This document shows, piece after piece, positions 23,019-36,517 of a DNA stretch of 64,000 nt; position 1 is the stretch's first letter, and every line of letters begins with the position of its first letter. Below the pieces are notes generated by a model. The model was not told the origin of the DNA. It did not search any database and was given only the letters and a program-made list of their open reading frames with translations. The position numbers were made by a program, and so were the translations under genes. The stretch comes from Aquisphaera giovannonii (GTDB lineage: Bacteria; Planctomycetota; Planctomycetia; Isosphaerales; Isosphaeraceae), in the NCBI RefSeq assembly GCF_008087625.1, contig NZ_CP042997.1, positions 8,308,001 to 8,372,000 of the forward strand. Reading direction: 5' to 3'.

Positions 23019-24884
23019 TCAGGGATTTGTCGCCACACCCGCGGCCGCGGGGACGGCGTCGAAGGGCGTCTCGACGGGCTCGACCATGCCGAAGTCATTC
23101 ACGAGGATGCCGCGGATGCCGACGAAGTAATCGCGGTTCCCCTGGACGTCCAGGTTGTAGATGGTCTGCCGGGCATCCGGCGTGACGGACTCGACGAGGC
23201 CGGAGCGGCCGGCCATCCTCAGCCGGTCGCCGGGCCTGAGGTCCCTCGCCATCGCCCACCCCATCCCGACCTTCCAGAACCTGTGGATGCCAGTCGCGAC
23301 GACGGCCTCGCCCGCGATGACGATCCGCAGCGTGTCCGCCGGGCCGTTGACGTGGATCCCCGTCACCGCGCGATAGCCCAGCGACCCATCCTTCAGGTTC
23401 TGCGAGAGCACGAGGTCGCCGACTCGGAGCGTCTCGATCGCCCGCGGGCCGCCCGCGGTATGGACGGGCGTCCCGGCGGCGAAGCAGCCGTGGTGGAACG
23501 TGGGGACGGTGACCTCGAAGCTCACCCCCGGCATCGTCTCGACGTCCTCATACGTCGGCTTGCTCGAGGGCGCCGACGACGAGACCAAGCCCAGCTCGTT
23601 CGCCCACCAGGAATTCCAGGATTCCGGATTCGGGCCGTCGTCGCGGCCGGTGAGCGTCCGGAGGATCGGCAGGGCGCGGTCGTTGACCGTCCGGATGGCG
23701 GCGTTCGTCTTCTCGAGTTGAGCCGCGTCGTCTTCCATCCTCCGGTCCACGGCCATGGCCCGCCGGATCGTCTCCTGCCTGGCGAGTTGCTCTTCCATCG
23801 CATTCTTCGAAGCCACGAGTCGATCCACCGCGGCCACGTCGAGATTGCGACCGGGCGGGAAGTTGACGGCGTGCGACTCGGGCCGCGGCATGTCCGGGTA
23901 GCGGTAGGTCTTCCGGAGGTCGAACGCCACCCCGTCGACGAGCAACCGGCCCGTCGTCCCCGGGCCGTCGCCCGGGATCACCTTGTACTTGAAGGGACGG
24001 CGGAGGAGGCCGATGAGAGTGCCGATCACCTCGCCCGGATCCCGGAAGAGGAGGGCGGACGAGGCCCGGTCACGGACCGACCGGAATGGGCTGAGAATCG
24101 CCAGCGAGACCAGGGCGTCGGACGCCCTCGGCCCGGAAATCCGTCCCAGGGCCTGGGCCGCCGCCTGCTGGAGCGTCTCCCCGCCCGACGCCAGGACGAG
24201 GAGGATCGACGGCACCGCACGGGGGTCGGTGATCGCCATCAACTCCTTCCGCGCCTTCTCGCGACGATCCGCGTCCCGGTGGGATAGCCCGTCCCGCAGC
24301 CTCTCCAGCCGGGGCCGCCAGGACCTGTCGGCCTTCTTCTGGGCCGCGGCCTCGGCCTTCTCCGCGGCGGCGTCTTCGGGGCGTACCCACCGGCCGCCCT
24401 GCTTCTGATAGCCGAGGTGCCGCCACGCCGATTCCTTCGACGGGTCGAGCTGGATCGCGACTCGGTAATGGGCGCGGGCCTGCTCCTCCAGGCCGTTCTT
24501 CGAGCACCAGTCGGCCAGACGCACCTGCGCGTCGGCCTTCGTCGGCGTGGCCGCCCGTCTCGCCAGGTATTCTCGCTCCCTGGCCTTGCGATCCGGCTCC
24601 ACCCCGGCCGCGGCGCCATCGGGTCGCAGCCATCGGCCGCGGACCTCGACGAGCCCCATCAGGGCCCGGGCCAGGGCATTGCCGGGGTCGATTGCGACGG
24701 CCCGGGCCAGGTGGATCAGCCGCTCGGCCTCCCGGCCCTCGGCCTCGCACCCGAGGGCCTTCCGGACCAGCTCGTCCGTCTCGGACTGGTGCGGCCTGGA
24801 GGCTGATGCAGCGTGGCCCCCGGGGACGTCGCCCGCGAACGCGAGGCACGAGAGCGAGAGCCAAAGCGGAGCAAGCATGGTCAT
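23019..24884 (-). CDS. TPR/HEAT-repeat protein with C-terminal HINT domain
   Basis: 621 residues. A signal peptide (LAPLWLSLSCLAFAGDV) is followed by TPR-like helices (about 30-190: EAERLIHLARAVAIDPGNAL, EQARAHYRVAIQLDPSKESA), HEAT-like repeats (about 200-330: DPRAVPSILLVLASGGET), a linker, and a pretoxin-type HINT domain at about 466-595. That domain begins with GCFAAGTPVHTAGG, the HINT Cys plus GTPV block, includes the VVATGIHRFW block (TxxH motif) and ends with GNRDYFVGIRGILVND. Family members cleave themselves at the Cys or release a C-terminal payload; here only about 26 residues follow, so there is no toxin domain. ATG at 24884 was chosen. Same strand as the dehydratase upstream. Confidence 0.8.
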   Translation of the reverse strand: MTMLAPLWLSLSCLAFAGDVPGGHAASASRPHQSETDELVRKALGCEAEGREAERLIHLARAVAIDPGNALARALMGLVEVRGRWLRPDGAAAGVEPDRKAREREYLARRAATPTKADAQVRLADWCSKNGLEEQARAHYRVAIQLDPSKESAWRHLGYQKQGGRWVRPEDAAAEKAEAAAQKKADRSWRPRLERLRDGLSHRDADRREKARKELMAITDPRAVPSILLVLASGGETLQQAAAQALGRISGPRASDALVSLAILSPFRSVRDRASSALLFRDPGEVIGTLIGLLRRPFKYKVIPGDGPGTTGRLLVDGVAFDLRKTYRYPDMPRPESHAVNFPPGRNLDVAAVDRLVASKNAMEEQLARQETIRRAMAVDRRMEDDAAQLEKTNAAIRTVNDRALPILRTLTGRDDGPNPESWNSWWANELGLVSSSAPSSKPTYEDVETMPGVSFEVTVPTFHHGCFAAGTPVHTAGGPRAIETLRVGDLVLSQNLKDGSLGYRAVTGIHVNGPADTLRIVIAGEAVVATGIHRFWKVGMGWAMARDLRPGDRLRMAGRSGLVESVTPDARQTIYNLDVQGNRDYFVGIRGILVNDFGMVEPVETPFDAVPAAAGVATNP

Positions 24885-25028
24885 TGCCCTCTCGAAGGAC
24901 CTCGCCGCGGCCCTCGCCCGGGGCCCGCGCATCGACGGGAGGCCGGGGGCCATGGGAATTGAACCGCGGCGGCGAGATCTGGTATCGCGGCCGGGCGGGA
25001 TTTGCCGGTCCGCGGACCCCATCTCGGA

Positions 25029-27041: not shown

Positions 27042-27205
27042 GGATGGACCTCGACCCTCGAGAGGAAACTCTTCTCGCCCCTTCCCCATCATCTCGGGAT
27101 CGCGGCCGGCGGGCAACGGACAGGCCCGGCGCGTGAGTTGCACGCAGGATCGGGGTTCCACTCGTGAACGGACGCGGAGACGCTCAAACCAGAAGGAGAC
27201 GCATC

Positions 27206-27664
27206 ATGGATCGCAGACAACTCCTGGGACTGGCGGCCGCCGGCTCGACCGCCCTGCTGGCCACCGGCGGCGGGGCCGCGAGGGCCGACGACGACAAGGG
27301 CGAGCACAAGGGGCACCACCACGACGAGCACCTCCGCATCCTGGGCGAGTGCGTCCGGGCCTGCAACGAGGCCTCGCACCATTGCCTGGAGGAGCTCAAG
27401 AAGTCGCAGTCCGAGCACCGCGAGCACCACGCCATGGCGCACGAACTGGCCATGGACTGCCAGGACTTCTGCGTCCTCGCCGCGAAGCTGATGGCCCGGC
27501 ACAGCCCGCTCGCCGCGTACTCGCACCAGGCCTGCGCCGAGGCCTGCCGCTGCTGCGCCGAGGAGTGCGAGAAGGGGACGGACGAGGTCATGAAGACGTG
27601 CGCGGAGAAGTGCCGCGACTGCGAGAAGGTGTGCCGCGAGATGTCCAAGAGGAACACGGCCTGA
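27206..27664 (+). CDS. four-helix-bundle, Csp-like copper-binding protein
   Basis: 152 residues. The leader MDRRQLLGLAAAGSTALLA is a twin-arginine signal, then a His-rich segment (HKGHHHDEH) and a Cys-rich helical bundle with 14 cysteines spaced i/i+3/i+4 (ECVRACNEASHHC, MDCQDFC, QACAEACRCCAEEC, TCAEKCRDCEKVC). This matches the copper-storage protein (Csp1) pattern, where Cys thiolates line the bundle and bind many Cu(I). Tat export implies a periplasmic role. ATG at 27206 follows AGAAGGAGA. A copper-responsive regulator is not visible nearby. Confidence 0.85.
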   Translation: MDRRQLLGLAAAGSTALLATGGGAARADDDKGEHKGHHHDEHLRILGECVRACNEASHHCLEELKKSQSEHREHHAMAHELAMDCQDFCVLAAKLMARHSPLAAYSHQACAEACRCCAEECEKGTDEVMKTCAEKCRDCEKVCREMSKRNTA

Positions 27665-27704: not shown

Positions 27705-28142
27705 GGGCCGCCGGCCGGCCGAAGTCTTGGCCCGCCGGCTGCGACCGCACGCGGGGCTTGCGAGTCCGAGCCCCGCAAGAGCTTCCCACCCTCGTCATCC
27801 CATCGAAGTCCTCCCTTCAGGACAGATGGCCTCACCCTAGCATTTGCTCTCCTTCTGAGAGCAACCGAGCCTCGCACTCCATCGACGCGGGCGGGCGTCG
27901 AGTGGAGGCACGCGGCGACAGTCGTGCGGCCCCGATCGATTGTCGGTGTGCCTGCCCGACTCACCCCTTCGCCTCGTCCCGAGACGCCTGGCGCCCACAG
28001 GCCAGCCGACGTTCCATGTCCCTGAAGACTTCGGGGCACGTCTCGCAGTCCTCGATCGTCACACTCTGGCCGACGGCCCGCGGTGGAACGGGGCCGCCGA
28101 GACGGCTCGCCGGGTCGGGGCGACTCCAATCCGTCCTGAATG
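27705..28142. other. intergenic region with perfect hairpin
   Basis: 438 bases without a supported gene. TTGCTCTC-CTTCT-GAGAGCAA (27844-27864) is a perfect 8-bp stem with a 5-base loop, without a T-tract on either side, so an operator or RNA hairpin rather than a classic terminator. Confidence 0.4.
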
Positions 28143-28171
28143 TTGACCTTCATCACCAGGAAACGTAAGAT
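28143..28171 (+). promoter_or_regulatory. sigma-70-like promoter of the cysH operon
   Basis: -35 TTGACC (28143-28148), 17-base spacer, -10 TAAGAT (28166-28171), predicting a transcript start near 28178, about 31 bases before the cysH ATG. The stretch is A+T-richer than its flanks. Confidence 0.6.
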
Positions 28172-28208
28172 TGCCCCTGAAACAGGTCCGGTCTGGGAGC
28201 CGAAAGCC

Positions 28209-28931
28209 ATGCCCGGGGTAGAATCGATGCTGGCCGAGGACGAGCTAACCGAAGTCAACGAACGACTTACGGGAGCGGCGCCGACGGACATCCTGAGGTG
28301 GGCCGTCGGGCGTTTCGGCGACCGCCTGACGATGGCGACGGCGTTCGGCCCCGAGGGGTGTATCCTCATCCACCTGCTCGCCGACATCGGCGCGGATGTC
28401 CGCATCTTCAACCTGGACACGGGCTACCAGTTCCCGGAGACGCTCGCCCTCCGGGACCGGATCGCGGAACGATACGGCATCGAGGTGGAGCTGGTGGGGG
28501 CCGAGACGAGCGTCGCCGAGTACGAGGCGAAGAACGGCGGCCCGCTGTATGTGGCCAACTCCGAGCAGTGCTGCTACGAGCGGAAGATCGTGCCGCTGCG
28601 GCGGGCGCTAGTCGGCTACGAGGCCTGGATCACGGCGATCCGGGCGGACCAGTCGGCACACCGGGCGAAGGCGAAGGTCCTGGGCTGGGATGCGAAATTC
28701 GGGCTGATCAAGGTCAACCCGCTTTTGGCCTGGACGAAGCGGGACGTCTGGGCTTTCATCGTGTCCAACAAGGTCCCTTACAATCCGCTTCACGACCAGG
28801 GATATCCGTCCATCGGCTGCTGGCCCTGCACGAGGCCGGTCGGGGCCGGGGAGGACGAGCGGGCCGGGCGGTGGGCCGGGCAGGCCAAGACGGAGTGCGG
28901 CCTGCACTCCCTGGACAGCAGCCAGCTCTGA
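28209..28931 (+). CDS. cysH: phosphoadenylyl/adenylyl-sulfate reductase
   Basis: Reduces activated sulfate to sulfite in assimilation. The 240-residue protein has the PP-loop-like nucleotide-binding region (ATAFGPEGCILIHL near residue 42), LDTGYQFPET, and a CC pair (EQCCYERK near residue 120) plus CWPC (near residue 203), the four cysteines that bind a 4Fe-4S cluster in the APS-reductase branch. ECGLH at the C-terminus carries the catalytic Cys. The presence of the cluster motif favours APS over PAPS as substrate, though the operon also encodes an APS kinase. ATG 28209 lies after GGGAG. First gene of cysH-rrf2-sat/cysC. Confidence 0.9.
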   Translation: MPGVESMLAEDELTEVNERLTGAAPTDILRWAVGRFGDRLTMATAFGPEGCILIHLLADIGADVRIFNLDTGYQFPETLALRDRIAERYGIEVELVGAETSVAEYEAKNGGPLYVANSEQCCYERKIVPLRRALVGYEAWITAIRADQSAHRAKAKVLGWDAKFGLIKVNPLLAWTKRDVWAFIVSNKVPYNPLHDQGYPSIGCWPCTRPVGAGEDERAGRWAGQAKTECGLHSLDSSQL

Positions 28932-28974: not shown

Positions 28975-29409
28975 ATGAGAATCTCGGCGAAGGCGGAATA
29001 CGCGTGCCTGGCCCTTCTGGCGCTTGCCCAGTCCGACCGGGCCGCGCCCCCGCTCCGGATCCGGGAGATCGCCGGATCCCGCGGCATCCCGGAACGCTAC
29101 CTCGTGCAGATCCTCCTCCAGCTCAAGGGCGCCGGCCTGGTGGCGAGCACCCGGGGCGCCTCCGGCGGGTATCGCCTGGCCCGGCCCGCGGCCGAGATCA
29201 ACCTCCGCCAGGTCCTCAGCGCCATCGACGGACCCGACGTCGCGCCGAGGGACGCCGGCCAGGCCGCCTCGGGCGCGGCGCACGCCGCCTCCGCGCACAT
29301 CCTGGCGGGGGTCTGGGAGGAGGTCCGCCAGGCCGAGAGAAACGTGCTGGAGAGGACGACGCTCGCCCAGCTCGCGGCCCAGGCCGCGCCCCAGGATTGG
29401 ATCATCTGA
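28975..29409 (+). CDS. Rrf2-family transcriptional regulator
   Basis: 144-residue winged-helix protein starting MRISAKAEYACLALLALAQ, with IREIAGSRGIPERYLVQILLQL and the ASGGYRLARPAAEINLRQVL wing/dimer block. It has a single Cys (residue 11) and lacks the three-Cys cluster site of IscR/NsrR, so it is closer to CymR, the cysteine-metabolism repressor, in build. Its position between cysH and sat/cysC, 43 bases after cysH, fits a local sulfur regulator. Its effector and operator are unknown; inference rests on context. Confidence 0.85.
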   Translation: MRISAKAEYACLALLALAQSDRAAPPLRIREIAGSRGIPERYLVQILLQLKGAGLVASTRGASGGYRLARPAAEINLRQVLSAIDGPDVAPRDAGQAASGAAHAASAHILAGVWEEVRQAERNVLERTTLAQLAAQAAPQDWII

Positions 29410-29446: not shown

Positions 29447-31210
29447 GTGCCGCTGCAAGGAGCCCCGTCCATTTCCCGCACAACCCCGACGGCCCGCGGC
29501 GAATTGAACACCCCCTACGGCGGGGGGCTCGTGGACCTGATCGTCGGCCCCGACCGCGCGGCCGAGATGAAGGCCGAGGCCAAGGACCACCCCAGCCTCA
29601 CGCTGGATGACCGCTCGCTCTGCGACCTGGAGCTCCTCGCCGTCGGCGGCTTCTCGCCCCTGACGGGATTCCTGGGGGAGGCGGACTACGATCGCGTCGT
29701 CGGCGAGCGGCGGCTCGCGGACGGGACGTTCTGGCCGCTGCCGGTGACCCTCCCGCTCACCCCCGGCGAGGGGATCGACGAGGGGAAGACGCTCGCCCTC
29801 CGCGACGTCTACGGCAACCTGCTCGCCTTCCTCCACCTGGAGGAGATCTACCGGCCGGACAAGGGACGCGAGGCGGCCCTGGCCTACGGCACCGTCGACC
29901 GGAAGCCCCCCCCGGTCGAGCACCTGGACCGCACGCCCGGGCACTACGCCGCCGGCCGACTCGAGGTCATCCGAACTCCCCCGCACTACGACTTCGTCGA
30001 CCTCCGCCGCACGCCCGCGGAGCTCCGCGACCGCCTCGCCTCCCTCGGCTGGTCGAAGGTCGTCGCCGCCCACGGCTCCGGGCTCCTCCTCCGCGCCGGC
30101 GAGGAGGCGGCCCGCCTGGCCGCCCGGCGGATCGGCGGGGGCCTCCTGATCAACCCGGTCGTCGGCGTGACCAGGCCCGGCGACGCGGGCCACTACACCC
30201 GGGTCCGCTGCTACCGGGCGCTCGTCGACGGCGATGGCCCCTGCTCGCCCGTCCTCAACCTCCTCCCGCTGGCCGGGCGGATGGCCGGCCCCGGGGAGGC
30301 CCTGCTGCGCGCCATCGTACGCCGCAACTACGGATGCACGCACATGCTCGTCGGCCCCGGCCACGCCGGCCCGGAGGCGGATCCCGCAGGCCAGCCGTCC
30401 TATCCCCCGCACGCCGCCCTCGAGGCGATGGCCGAGCACGCCGACGAGATCGGCGTCCAGGCGGTCGAGTCCGAGCCGATGGTCTACCTGCCCGACGATC
30501 ACCGCTACTGCCCCGCGGGCGAGGTGCCGCGGGGGGCCGCGACCGTCGACATGGCCTCCTCGGGGATGCTCGAGGGACGCCCGGACCTCCGGCGTGAGCT
30601 CCCCGATTGGTCCGTCCGCCCGGCCGTGGCGGAGATCCTCGCCCAGGCGAGCCCGCCGAAGGACCGCCAGGGCCTGACCGTCTGGTTCACCGGGCTCTCC
30701 GGGTCCGGCAAGAGCACCGTCGCCCACGCCCTGGTGGAGCGGCTGGCCGAGCACGGCCGCCGCTGCGCCCTGCTCGACGGCGACGAGATCCGGACGCACC
30801 TCTCCCGGGGCCTCACCTTCAGCAAGGAAGACCGCGACATCAACATCCGCCGCGTCGGCTACGTCGCCGGCCTCGTCTGCCAGGCCGGAGGCACCACGCT
30901 CTGCTCGGTGATCAGCCCGTACAGGGCCATCCGCGACGAGGCGCGCGAGGCATCCCGGGGCAACTTCGTCGAGGTCTACTGCTCCACCCCCATCGAGGTC
31001 TGCGAGCTTCGCGACGTGAAGGGCATGTACGCCAAGGCCCGCGCCGCGGTCGCCGCCAGCAGGCCCCTGGGCTTCACGGGCGTCGACGACCCGTACGAGC
31101 CCCCGGTGGATCCCGAGGTCTCCCTGGACACCAGCAGGCAGTCCGTCGAGGAATGCGTCGAGGCGATCGTCCGGAAGCTCCTCGACCTGGGCTACATCCT
31201 GCCCCACTGA
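29447..31210 (+). CDS. Sat-CysC fusion: degenerate ATP sulfurylase plus APS kinase
   Basis: 587 residues in two parts. The N-terminal part (about 10-395) has the ATP-sulfurylase fold (LAVGGFSPLTGFLGEADYD, INPVVGVTRPGDAGHYTRVRC), but the catalytic QxRNPxHRxHE segment reads AHGSGLLLRAGEE and the GRDHAG segment reads GPGHAG. This half is probably inactive. The C-terminal part (about 405-587) is an intact APS kinase: P-loop GLSGSGKST, DGDEIRTHLSRGLTFSKEDR, INIRRVGYVA, and the DPYEPPVDPEV lid. No ATG precedes the domain in frame; GTG at 29447 was chosen, 37 bases after the rrf2 stop. If APS comes from CysDN elsewhere, this protein would only make PAPS. Confidence 0.85.
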   Translation: MPLQGAPSISRTTPTARGELNTPYGGGLVDLIVGPDRAAEMKAEAKDHPSLTLDDRSLCDLELLAVGGFSPLTGFLGEADYDRVVGERRLADGTFWPLPVTLPLTPGEGIDEGKTLALRDVYGNLLAFLHLEEIYRPDKGREAALAYGTVDRKPPPVEHLDRTPGHYAAGRLEVIRTPPHYDFVDLRRTPAELRDRLASLGWSKVVAAHGSGLLLRAGEEAARLAARRIGGGLLINPVVGVTRPGDAGHYTRVRCYRALVDGDGPCSPVLNLLPLAGRMAGPGEALLRAIVRRNYGCTHMLVGPGHAGPEADPAGQPSYPPHAALEAMAEHADEIGVQAVESEPMVYLPDDHRYCPAGEVPRGAATVDMASSGMLEGRPDLRRELPDWSVRPAVAEILAQASPPKDRQGLTVWFTGLSGSGKSTVAHALVERLAEHGRRCALLDGDEIRTHLSRGLTFSKEDRDINIRRVGYVAGLVCQAGGTTLCSVISPYRAIRDEAREASRGNFVEVYCSTPIEVCELRDVKGMYAKARAAVAASRPLGFTGVDDPYEPPVDPEVSLDTSRQSVEECVEAIVRKLLDLGYILPH

Positions 31211-32727: not shown

Positions 32728-32949
32728 CGACCCCGGAGCAACGGATTGCCCGCGACAGTCCCGCGGCCAGACATGGCCCTATCCGCGGGGGCCGGGCCCC
32801 CTTCAGCCCGGCCCTCACTCCCCCCTGCCATGGCAGGGCAATCCACACCCCGTGTCGCCTCGCGACATGAGGTCCGGGCTCGGCTGGACGAGCGGCATCC
32901 GGGCGGACCGGAGCCTCGAGCCCGGGTGACGCGTCCAGGGAGTCCGTCG

Positions 32950-33339
32950 ATGCGACGTTATGAATTGACCGACACGCAGTGGGCTCGCATCGCCCCGATG
33001 CTCCCGCGGGTCGTCGCGGGCAAGACCGGCCGCCCCCTCTGCGACCACCGCCCCATCGTCAACGGCATCCTCTGGATCCTGCGCACGGGCGCGCCCTGGC
33101 GGGACCTGCCCGAGCGTTACGGGGCCTGGCAGACCGTCTTCGCCCGCTTCAACCGATGGCGAGGCGACGGCACGCTCGATCGCCTCCTCGCGGAGCTCTC
33201 CGACGAGCCGGCCGGCGAGGCCGGCGACGAGACCGCGGGCCACCTCGCCCTCCCCGATCACATCCCCGAAGGACGCCGGCGGGCCGCCCCGCGGACGCAG
33301 GCCGGGCCGGCCCGGGTCGTCGCCGCGCCCCGCGCCTAA
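32950..33339 (+). pseudogene. IS5-family transposase, N-terminal half only
   Basis: 129 residues starting MRRYELTDTQWARIAPMLPR with GRPLCDHRPIVNGILWILRTGAPWRDLPERYG, the DUF4096-type N-terminal domain of IS5/IS427 transposases. After LLAELSDEP the sequence leaves the family and ends. The catalytic DDE half is not found in the following 250 bases in any frame, so this is a remnant rather than the first part of a working orfA/orfB pair. Confidence 0.75.
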
Positions 33340-33586: not shown

Positions 33587-36517
33587 TCACGACCGGGCCG
33601 TACCCTCGATCGCGGCGGCCGCCTTGCCGTGCCTCAGGGCGATCCGGGGGCGAGCCTTCGCGGCCTGCACGCGCGTCGCCGCCGCGGACGCGAGGGCGTG
33701 CCGCCGGGCGGCCGACGCCGCGTTCGCGGACCGGCCCGGGTGGTACGTCGGGATGGTCGTCGCCGCCCCTCGGGTCCCCGGGGCCACCGGCGAGGCGGTG
33801 CCGACCTGCGTCCGCGGGGCGTAGACCCGGTGATGCTCGGAGTCGAGCTCCGCGACGAAGTCGCCGCCCGGCCGGTTGTTCCCCGAGGGGAACGTGCCGT
33901 AGAACTCGCCGTCGAGCGCATTGCCGGCGATGTCCTGGATGCCCGACGGGAGCGCCGGGATCGCCGACCTGGCCGTGAACAGGAAGTGGCCGCCGCGGAT
34001 GTACTTGCCGTTATTGATCGTGAGCGTCGTCACCTGATCGCCGGTCGTCGTCCCCGGCGTCGTGGAGGCCGCGCTCACCAGGAACCTGGGCAGGTGCTTC
34101 AGCCGGAACGGCGAGTAGGTCTGCTGGAACTGGTAGTTCGCGGCGTCGATCAGGGTCGACTGGCTCAGGCCCACGCCCGCGTTGCCCGGCCCGCCGAAGT
34201 CCGCGGTCGTCAGGGTGATCGTCCCGTGGATCCGATCGAAGTAGACGTTCGTCACCTTGGGCCCGGCGGTGTCGATGACCAGGGCGGGGCTGATCGGCGT
34301 GACGTCGCTGAGCGTGTGGCCGGAGCTGTCGATCGCCTGGGCCGCGATCGCATAGCTGCCGTCGGCCAGGGCCGCCGAGGGCGTGATGATCCAGGCCCCG
34401 GTGCCGTCGGCCGTCGCCTGGCCGATCAGCGCGGGCGTCGACCCGCCCTGGGGCGTGGCGTACAGCGAGACCCTGGCATACGGCTCGCTCGCGGTGCCGG
34501 TGTAGACGGGCTGGACGACGTTGGTGATCCCGTCGCTGTTGGAGGCCCCCGAGTCGCTGGCCGGGTCCAGCCTGCCCGTCAGAGTCAGGGCCTGGTCGGC
34601 GACGTTGGCGGTGTTGCTCAGGGCGATCGCCGAGCCGTAGACGCTCTGGACGTGGACGGTGATCGGGTAGGTGCCGTCCTGCGGGCCCGGGGTGCCCGAC
34701 CCGGCCTTGCCGGCCGGCAGCGAGTCGGCGTAGGTGTGCGCGCCGTTGATCGTATAGGTCACGCCCCCCGTGCCCGTCACGCCGGTCACGTACCCGGCGG
34801 TCTGAGGCGTCCCGTCGCCCCAGTCGATGGTGACGACGAACTGTCCCGCCGTGGAGCTCGGGTCGGCGTCGCGGAACGAGCCGACCACGCCGCTGAAGTA
34901 GGTCTCTTCCGTGGCTGCGATCGGGGAGCTCGCGATCGCCGTCAGGGGCGCGTCGGCGATCGCGGCCGCGGACGAGGCGATCGCGACCGCGCCGGTGTCC
35001 TTGGTGATCGTCGTCACGACCGGGTACGAGCCGACCGTGGCATAGGTGTGCGTCCCGTAGACCTGGAAGACGACGCCGTTCGCCGTGCCCGTCTGGACGA
35101 TCCGGGTCGCCGACGAGGTGCCGCCGTCGCCCCAGTTGATGGACGCGGTGTAGGCCGAGACGGCCCCGATCGTCCCGTTGTCGATGAAGGTCGCGACGAG
35201 GACGTCGCCGTTCGCCGGGGGGGTGGAGACCGTCGGGTAGTTGCCGACCGTCAGCCCGCGATAGCCGCTGACCGGGGCACCCTGCGCCGCGATCGTGGAG
35301 GCGACGACGTCGGCCGTCGACGCGATGGAGCCCGATCCGGCCGCTCGCTGGGCGAGCGTGATGAAGACGCCCCCCACCGTGGCCGAGCTGCTGGTCCCCC
35401 GGTTGGTCACGGTCACGCTGACCGGATAGGTGCCGGGATTGGCGTAGGCGTGATTGCCGAGGACGTCATAGCCGCCGGTGCCGTTGGCGACGACCGTGCC
35501 GCCGGTCGTCGAGGTCCCGTCGCCCCAGTTGATCGTCGCGACGAAGTCGGCCGCCCGGACGTTGGGGTCGCCGTCGGTGAACGTCGCGACCACCTTGTTC
35601 GTGAAGGCCTGCGCCTCCGTGGCGTCGATGGTCACCCCGGTCCCCGCCGGCGCGGCGGCCGGCTCGGTGATGTGGATCGTCTCGATGCTCGTGTAGTCCA
35701 CCGTCGGCGTCGGGGAGCCGGTGATCCGCCCCGGCACCGAATAGTCCAGGCCGCCCACAGAGGAGTCGAAGGCCAGCGTGTCGGTGCCCCCGCCCCCGTC
35801 GATGGTGTAGGTCTGCAGGCTGCCCGAGCCGGGGCCGGTGAGCTGGAAGGAGTCGTCCCCGCTCCCCCCGGTCAGGCTGATCCCCGTGATGCCCGCACCG
35901 ATCGTGATCGGATTCGAAAGCGCCGAGCCGGTCACCTGGGTCGCCGTCACCGCGAACGTCTGGCCGGTCGTCGCCGAGCTGTCGCTGACCACGACCGTCG
36001 CGGAGCCGCCGGTCGCCTGGACGGAAACCGCCGCCTGGACGCCCGCGGGGGAGCCGACGCCGCCGTAGTCGAGCTCGCTCGCGCCGGCCCCAAGCTCGAC
36101 GGCCGTCGGGTCGTCCACCGAGGCGAGGTGCACGGTGCTCGTGCCCGCCCTCGTGATCGAGATCGAGCTGACCGAGGAGTCCGGCCCCGTCACGCTCGTC
36201 GTGCCGCCGCCCGTCCACCCCGCCCCGATCGCGCCCGCCCCGAGCGTGATGTTCTGGAGCGACTCTGTGAACGTGTACTGGCCCGCGGGCCCCGTCGTGG
36301 AGACGGTCAGCAGATTCGGGGAGCCCGGCGACGACGCCTCCACGTAGGTCAGCACGCCCCCGACAATGTCGATCGTCGAGAGCACCGTGCGGTCCTCCAG
36401 GTACTCCAGGAGCCTGGGGCCACGCGTGCCGGCCCGCCTCCGCCCGGGAGCCCTGGACCCGAAGAGGCGAAGGGCACGCCGAGTACGCCGGTCGAGGAAA
36501 GACTCAATCAATGTCAT
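33587..36517 (-). CDS. large PKD/Ig-repeat surface protein with LEDRTVLS export motif
   Basis: 976 residues. The N-terminus is Arg-rich and then reads RLLEYLEDRTVLSTIDI (about 34-50), the planctomycete N-terminal motif seen in giant secreted proteins. Repeats follow: three PKD-like domains with INWGDGTS, INWGDGGT and IDWGDGTP (near residues 332, 464 and 567), then a bacterial-Ig-like domain (ARVSLYATPQGGSTPALIG) and a beta-rich domain. The C-terminal 50 residues are basic and Ala/Arg-rich. Probably extracellular adhesion or matrix. ATG at 36517 follows GGGAG. No catalytic motif seen. Confidence 0.8.
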   Translation of the reverse strand: MTLIESFLDRRTRRALRLFGSRAPGRRRAGTRGPRLLEYLEDRTVLSTIDIVGGVLTYVEASSPGSPNLLTVSTTGPAGQYTFTESLQNITLGAGAIGAGWTGGGTTSVTGPDSSVSSISITRAGTSTVHLASVDDPTAVELGAGASELDYGGVGSPAGVQAAVSVQATGGSATVVVSDSSATTGQTFAVTATQVTGSALSNPITIGAGITGISLTGGSGDDSFQLTGPGSGSLQTYTIDGGGGTDTLAFDSSVGGLDYSVPGRITGSPTPTVDYTSIETIHITEPAAAPAGTGVTIDATEAQAFTNKVVATFTDGDPNVRAADFVATINWGDGTSTTGGTVVANGTGGYDVLGNHAYANPGTYPVSVTVTNRGTSSSATVGGVFITLAQRAAGSGSIASTADVVASTIAAQGAPVSGYRGLTVGNYPTVSTPPANGDVLVATFIDNGTIGAVSAYTASINWGDGGTSSATRIVQTGTANGVVFQVYGTHTYATVGSYPVVTTITKDTGAVAIASSAAAIADAPLTAIASSPIAATEETYFSGVVGSFRDADPSSTAGQFVVTIDWGDGTPQTAGYVTGVTGTGGVTYTINGAHTYADSLPAGKAGSGTPGPQDGTYPITVHVQSVYGSAIALSNTANVADQALTLTGRLDPASDSGASNSDGITNVVQPVYTGTASEPYARVSLYATPQGGSTPALIGQATADGTGAWIITPSAALADGSYAIAAQAIDSSGHTLSDVTPISPALVIDTAGPKVTNVYFDRIHGTITLTTADFGGPGNAGVGLSQSTLIDAANYQFQQTYSPFRLKHLPRFLVSAASTTPGTTTGDQVTTLTINNGKYIRGGHFLFTARSAIPALPSGIQDIAGNALDGEFYGTFPSGNNRPGGDFVAELDSEHHRVYAPRTQVGTASPVAPGTRGAATTIPTYHPGRSANAASAARRHALASAAATRVQAAKARPRIALRHGKAAAAIEGTARS

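Follow-up and report, generated by a model that had tools for sequence, protein, structure and literature searches.

The sat-cysC fusion gene of Aquisphaera giovannonii most likely encodes an APS kinase with a dead ATP-sulfurylase half. APS would be supplied by a second enzyme of the same genome, CysD-CysNC*, in which it is the APS-kinase half of the CysNC fusion that is degenerate. The two fusions appear to be complementary, and in this family of planctomycetes decay of the Sat active site seems to follow the presence of CysD-CysNC*. Loss of activity, flow through the pathway and the scaffold role proposed for the dead domain are all read from sequence.

The fusion gene (sat*-cysC, 587 aa) lies at 29447..31210 on the plus strand of the window, the 64,000-nucleotide stretch of genome that was analysed; it was delimited by ORF and domain calls, with the GTG start as given and the true start uncertain. 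A PUA-like N-terminal domain of the sulfurylase half (residues 21-178, 29507..29980, PF14306) is followed by the ATP-sulfurylase catalytic domain (residues 179-402, 29981..30652, PF01747) and the APS-kinase half (residues 403-587, 30653..31207, PF01583), all on the plus strand; the domain search itself gave spans of 22-176 for PUA_2, 185-400 for ATP-sulfurylase and 408-561 for APS_kinase. The bifunctional ATP sulfurylase/APS kinase profile NF004040/PRK05537 aligns over positions 6-570 of 572, consistent with a full-length two-domain architecture, and its score (649.3 bits) falls under the curated cut-off of 669. The sulfurylase profile TIGR00339 (sopT) is likewise below its cut-off (279 bits vs. 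323), whereas the APS kinase profile TIGR00455 is well over its own (201 bits vs. 138.7). Two genes precede sat*-cysC on this strand: cysH (28140..28931, NF002537 over cut-off), encoding an APS/PAPS reductase with CC...CxxC cluster cysteines, and, between cysH and sat*-cysC, a gene for an Rrf2-family regulator (28975..29409, TIGR00738/PF02082). The sequence-only reading had taken these two neighbours as a pointer to an outside source of APS. They are not diagnostic: cysH beside sat-cysC is conserved in relatives, including genomes with an intact Sat, and the neighbourhood was therefore rejected as a sign of Sat inactivity.

Further genes lie on either side. At 23019-25022 (minus strand) is a TPR/HEAT-repeat protein with a pretoxin-type HINT domain (PF07591) at its end, and at 27164-27664 (plus) a small protein rich in Cys and His that has a Tat-like signal; its DUF326 match is weak and below the cut-off, and it may be a four-helix protein for metal storage. 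Past the sat-cysC region come an IS4/5-type transposase (DUF4096, 32746-33339, plus) and a surface-type protein of 976 aa that contains a bacterial Ig-like domain (Big_13, 33587-36517, minus).

Loss of the sulfurylase site was assessed by aligning the window protein with the enzymes of Aquifex (2gks), the fungus Penicillium (1i2d) and yeast (1j70) and with 128 homologous ORF hits. Where the intact enzymes have QTRNPxHRAHEE, residues 209-220 read HGSGLLLRAGEE (the whole lost QxRNP/HxxH site, residues 208-222, 30068..30112, plus strand, reads AHGSGLLLRAGEEAA). The GRDHAG position reads GPGHAG (residues 303-308), and the lost GRDHAGPG site as a whole (residues 303-310, 30353..30376, plus) reads GPGHAGPE. 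All six ligand residues are thereby replaced (Q209H, R211S, N212G, H215L, H218G and R304P). A third motif, SGTxxR (residues 370-375, 30554..30571, plus), recognized from its conserved columns and the description in PMC3779200, is also gone through S370A, T372S and R375L. When columns at least 97% conserved in the intact homologs are considered, 26 of 72 are changed in the ATP-sulfurylase domain, namely the six ligand residues and 20 others, as against 1 of 22 in the N-terminal domain and 2 of 48 in the kinase half; this excess is far beyond chance. The kinase half keeps every catalytic motif (GLSGSGKST, LLDGDEIR, EDRDINIRR, ISPYR, RDVKGMYAKAR and FTGVDDPYE). The degeneracy of both sulfurylase motifs and the completeness of the kinase half, as first read from the DNA, are thus borne out by the alignment, and the sulfurylase half is again predicted to be inactive. 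The claim that the fold-defining blocks are intact holds only in part: the INPVVG block has lost the conserved histidine of (I/L)HPVVG (H236N).

It is extremely improbable that the sulfurylase is still active by means of displaced residues. R216 and H306 do remain in the domain, and as a general caution activity is not readable from sequence. Nevertheless, no relocated QxRNP, HxxH or GRD motif occurs anywhere in the window protein, nor in the other frames of the first-motif stretch, and the ligand loops RNP, GRD and SGTxxR are all changed, although PMC3779200 describes the RNP and GRD loops as strictly conserved in ATP sulfurylases with differing metabolic roles. A frameshift was rejected as the origin of the altered motifs, the DNA being in register with that of an intact relative and the other two frames lacking the motif. 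Sequencing error was rejected as well, since the sister genome and other lineages are decayed too.

The genome (10.5 Mb, 99.9% complete) contains a single PF01747 match, the window gene itself. No second, intact sat was found in the 10.5 Mb with this profile. CysD (520 bits, cut-off 397) and CysN (669 bits, cut-off 336) are encoded together at C1:8922323-8925176, about 0.58 Mb from sat*-cysC; the earlier suggestion that APS comes from another enzyme, perhaps CysDN, is thus supported by the genome search. CysN is fused to an APS-kinase domain (CysNC, PRK05506, 972 bits vs. a cut-off of 715). This gene is on the minus strand outside the window (G000:C1:8922323-8924257; L206:3324-5258), and its kinase half is degenerate: it reads VLYGQ for LDGD, FVAP for FISP and RDTSG for RDxKG. 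Consequently LDGD (now YGQ), the lysine of RDxKG and the serine of ISP are lost, while the P-loop (GLTGSGKS) and the APS-binding arginines are kept, and some residual kinase activity is possible. In CysC of Mycobacterium tuberculosis, the Asp pair of LDGD and Lys562 correspond to the Mg-water ligand, the proposed base and the transition-state lysine (PMC4373884). Judging by the spacing of R418, K421 and F435 in EhAPSK (PMC13213808), Lys562 is probably the lysine of RDxKG. Compared with the M. tuberculosis type of CysN/CysC, the CysNC of the window genome therefore lacks the catalytic Asp and Lys of the kinase.

The second Asp and the lysine are lost in all 14 related CysNC proteins of the family and in relatives of 55-91% identity from other families of the class, and the altered motif set recurs in most of the CysNC checked in the class. 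The kinase is intact in another CysNC lineage (47-51% identity), to which the protein of genome G004 belongs. Class-wide, a further APS kinase is present in 146 of 149 genomes with a dead-kinase CysNC vs. 3 of 17 with the other lineage (Fisher, 6e-15, uncorrected for relatedness; CysNC type was assigned by identity or E-value in rows without a motif check, and the motif-checked subset gives 45/46 vs. 1/6). The dead kinase half is 79-88% identical in the three family pairs compared. This good conservation, unlike the decaying Sat domain, suggests that the kinase half of CysNC* serves some function. Between family pairs rpoB identity ranges from 78 to 97%, yet CysNC identity hardly varies with it (84-91%; loci L206-L221), and relatives from other families are as close as those from within the family. 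Both observations hint that cysD-cysNC has spread horizontally among planctomycetes.

Within the Isosphaeraceae-like family, the query has matches in all 45 genomes and the Sat domain is found in 43. Most relatives of about 70% identity keep an intact Sat site, and the enzymes of other bacterial phyla (about 42-50% identity) are nearly all intact, a few having single-position differences. In 16 family genomes the site is decayed, with at least one ligand residue changed, and the replacements differ: the first motif reads PTSTPLHRAD in Aquisphaera insulae and HADEPVHRAQ in Paludisphaera soli, two near relatives of the window genome, and QTSAYMFRPH in G036, whereas in G028, G031, G032 and G033 there are loop deletions at the GRD motif. 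On the rpoB tree, parsimony requires eight state changes for the dead Sat, which puts the separate decays of the site at about eight or more, no two of them alike. The damage is graded. G027 has a change at a single ligand residue, and in G037 one ligand residue and a neighbouring one are altered; their Sat may still be active. Three other copies stand apart. In genome G014 an in-frame TAG interrupts the kinase half of a Sat-CysC whose Sat half is intact (L041/L050); either the sequence is in error or this is decay of the opposite kind. G002 carries, beside an intact gene, a second, partial Sat-CysC (L136, contig C51) in which H218P is the sole HxxH change. A contig labelled Candidatus Kuenenia stuttgartiensis (CAMBEP010000046.1, L052) bears the same decayed Sat-CysC as G033 and is probably a misnamed bin.

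The decay is closely associated with the second sulfurylase. CysD is over its cut-off in 15 family genomes (in G036, CysNC lies at a contig edge). Among the 43 genomes with Sat-CysC, CysD/CysNC is present in 14 of the 16 with a decayed site vs. 1 of the 27 with an intact one, leaving 2 decayed without CysD and 26 intact without it (Fisher, 2e-8). Taking the phylogeny into account, a model of irreversible decay with a CysD-dependent rate is preferred (LRT 23.9, p = 1e-6), a Pagel-type test of decay against CysD gives p = 1e-5, and the dependence holds when at least two lost residues are required (p = 5e-4). Independent pairs on the rpoB tree are borderline, with five of six in the same direction and none opposite (p about 0.06). 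Both decayed genomes without a detected CysD are incomplete (G033, 94%; G043, 81%), and the sister lineage of G033 has CysD. G038, where CysD occurs together with an intact Sat-CysC, is an exception to the pattern. In G004, CysD-CysNC is present without Sat, and the kinase of its CysNC is intact.

Kinases with a dead sulfurylase-like domain have been described before. Tbd_0210 of Thiobacillus denitrificans (PDB 3CR8) is a hexamer that likewise has an inactive N-terminal sulfurylase-like domain and an active C-terminal APS kinase in the same order, the dead domain being proposed to hold the hexamer together (PMC13213808). EhAPSK of Entamoeba histolytica (PDB 23VK) also combines a dead sulfurylase-like domain with a working APS kinase, and there the dead domain was shown to raise kinase activity through interdomain contacts (PMC13213808). 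By its sequence the window protein matches this type, with catalytic residues gone and kinase motifs intact. Its inactivation is nevertheless an independent event, distinct from the Thiobacillus and Entamoeba cases, because most relatives of about 70% identity are intact. Shared descent of the inactivation with that of Tbd_0210 was rejected on the same ground and because 3cr8 is a weaker match than the active 2gks (366 vs. 486 bits); in addition, repeated decay tied to CysD-CysNC* is a feature of the window family. EhAPSK differs in being eukaryotic, with a very divergent sulfurylase-like domain, a missing loop and a shortened linker, and represents an unrelated event. The best sequence match, the Sat-APS kinase of Aquifex aeolicus (PDB 2GKS), has the same architecture and keeps QTRNPMHRVHEE and GRDHA, both of which the window protein has lost. 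The ATP sulfurylase of filamentous fungi (PDB 1I2D, 1M8P) is likewise a two-function fusion of which one half is dead, in that case an APS-kinase-like regulatory one. The sequence-only reading had called the window protein a mirror image of the fungal enzyme. The polarity is right, but the arrangement is not unprecedented, being known already from T. denitrificans and E. histolytica. CysNC*, with its dead kinase half, has the fungal-like polarity, although it contains a GTPase-type sulfurylase subunit rather than Sat.

Constraint on the decayed Sat domain is relaxed but not absent. The dN/dS of the Sat catalytic domain is 0.02-0.12 in intact pairs vs. 0.22-0.51 in decayed pairs, where it exceeds both other regions in nearly every pair (kinase, 0.10-0.30). 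Twenty-three scaffold columns are unchanged in 16 of 16 decayed copies (D182, F183, R187, R194, A207, R216, E220, A225, L233, L234, V239, G240, P244, G245, D246, R254, L272, L273, P274, R278, N294, G296 and G336), and in all complete copies the frame is open and the protein full length. An AlphaFold model of the window protein as a monomer (mean pLDDT 84.7), which leans on an alignment of mostly intact homologs, keeps the folds of both halves: the sulfurylase half matches yeast 1r6x with Z 49.5 (1.9 A over 377 residues), and the kinase half matches 1m7g with Z 22.0. It is probably as a scaffold or regulator of the kinase that the dead Sat domain is retained, as was shown experimentally for EhAPSK and is proposed for T. 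denitrificans. The original suggestion of a regulatory or structural domain is compatible with the invariant columns, the open frame and a dN/dS that is raised but below 1.

The several-fold higher dN/dS of the Sat domain in dead than in intact pairs could also reflect slow decay with no retained role, in which the sulfurylase half is redundant and selection acts on the kinase half alone. The loop deletions at the GRD motif are in keeping with such decay, which is judged rather unlikely: the complete copies are all open and full length, the N-terminal domain is nearly unchanged, the 23 columns are constant with dN/dS below 1, and the two precedents offer roles for a dead domain, proposed in T. 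denitrificans and shown in E. histolytica. Less likely still is a gain of function, in which the altered site would serve a new ligand or reaction, such as the sensing of APS, PAPS or some other nucleotide. The fold and the groove walls are kept, and in fungi the dead half did become an allosteric nucleotide sensor (PMC4220642), but the replacements differ per lineage, which points to lost constraint rather than to one shared new site.

The proposed scheme is as follows. CysD and CysN, the latter fused to the dead kinase half, would make APS, which would in part be reduced by CysH, whose CC...CxxC cysteines are those of APS reductases, and in part be converted to PAPS by the kinase half of Sat*-CysC. 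Each fusion would then lack the half that the other supplies. The presence of CysD-CysNC* in a lineage would relax selection on the Sat active site, which then decays, while the sulfurylase fold would persist as a scaffold that serves the kinase in oligomerisation or regulation. The dead-kinase CysNC likely came first and the repeated Sat decay later, because this CysNC is common to all and coexists with an intact Sat-CysC in G038. A further-reaching version of this reciprocal half-inactivation, to which slightly less than even confidence is given, is that CysD-CysN(C*) supplies APS alone and (Sat*)CysC PAPS alone, that strong selection maintains the kinase half of CysNC* as a regulatory domain sensing APS or PAPS, and that the arrival of CysD-CysNC* repeatedly triggers Sat decay, the APS and PAPS branches having thus been split many times in parallel.

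Kinases with a dead sulfurylase domain are already known, and the window protein is an independent new case. In the open-access literature searched, with incomplete coverage, no report was found of repeated Sat decay tied to a second sulfurylase or of two fusions in the same genome that are half-inactivated reciprocally, and nothing on point concerned this sulfate-activation system in planctomycetes. Dead halves of sulfate-activating fusions were previously known as isolated cases in fungi, Thiobacillus and Entamoeba. Here, one bacterial family offers a natural series from fully intact enzymes through single-residue changes to complete loss of the Sat site. The series comes with what appears to be a genome-level cause, a second sulfurylase bearing a dead kinase half, and it makes the role of dead domains directly testable. 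The pair would show cleanly how two multifunctional enzymes can divide their labour reciprocally, and the standard annotation of such genes as bifunctional is probably wrong in many planctomycetes.
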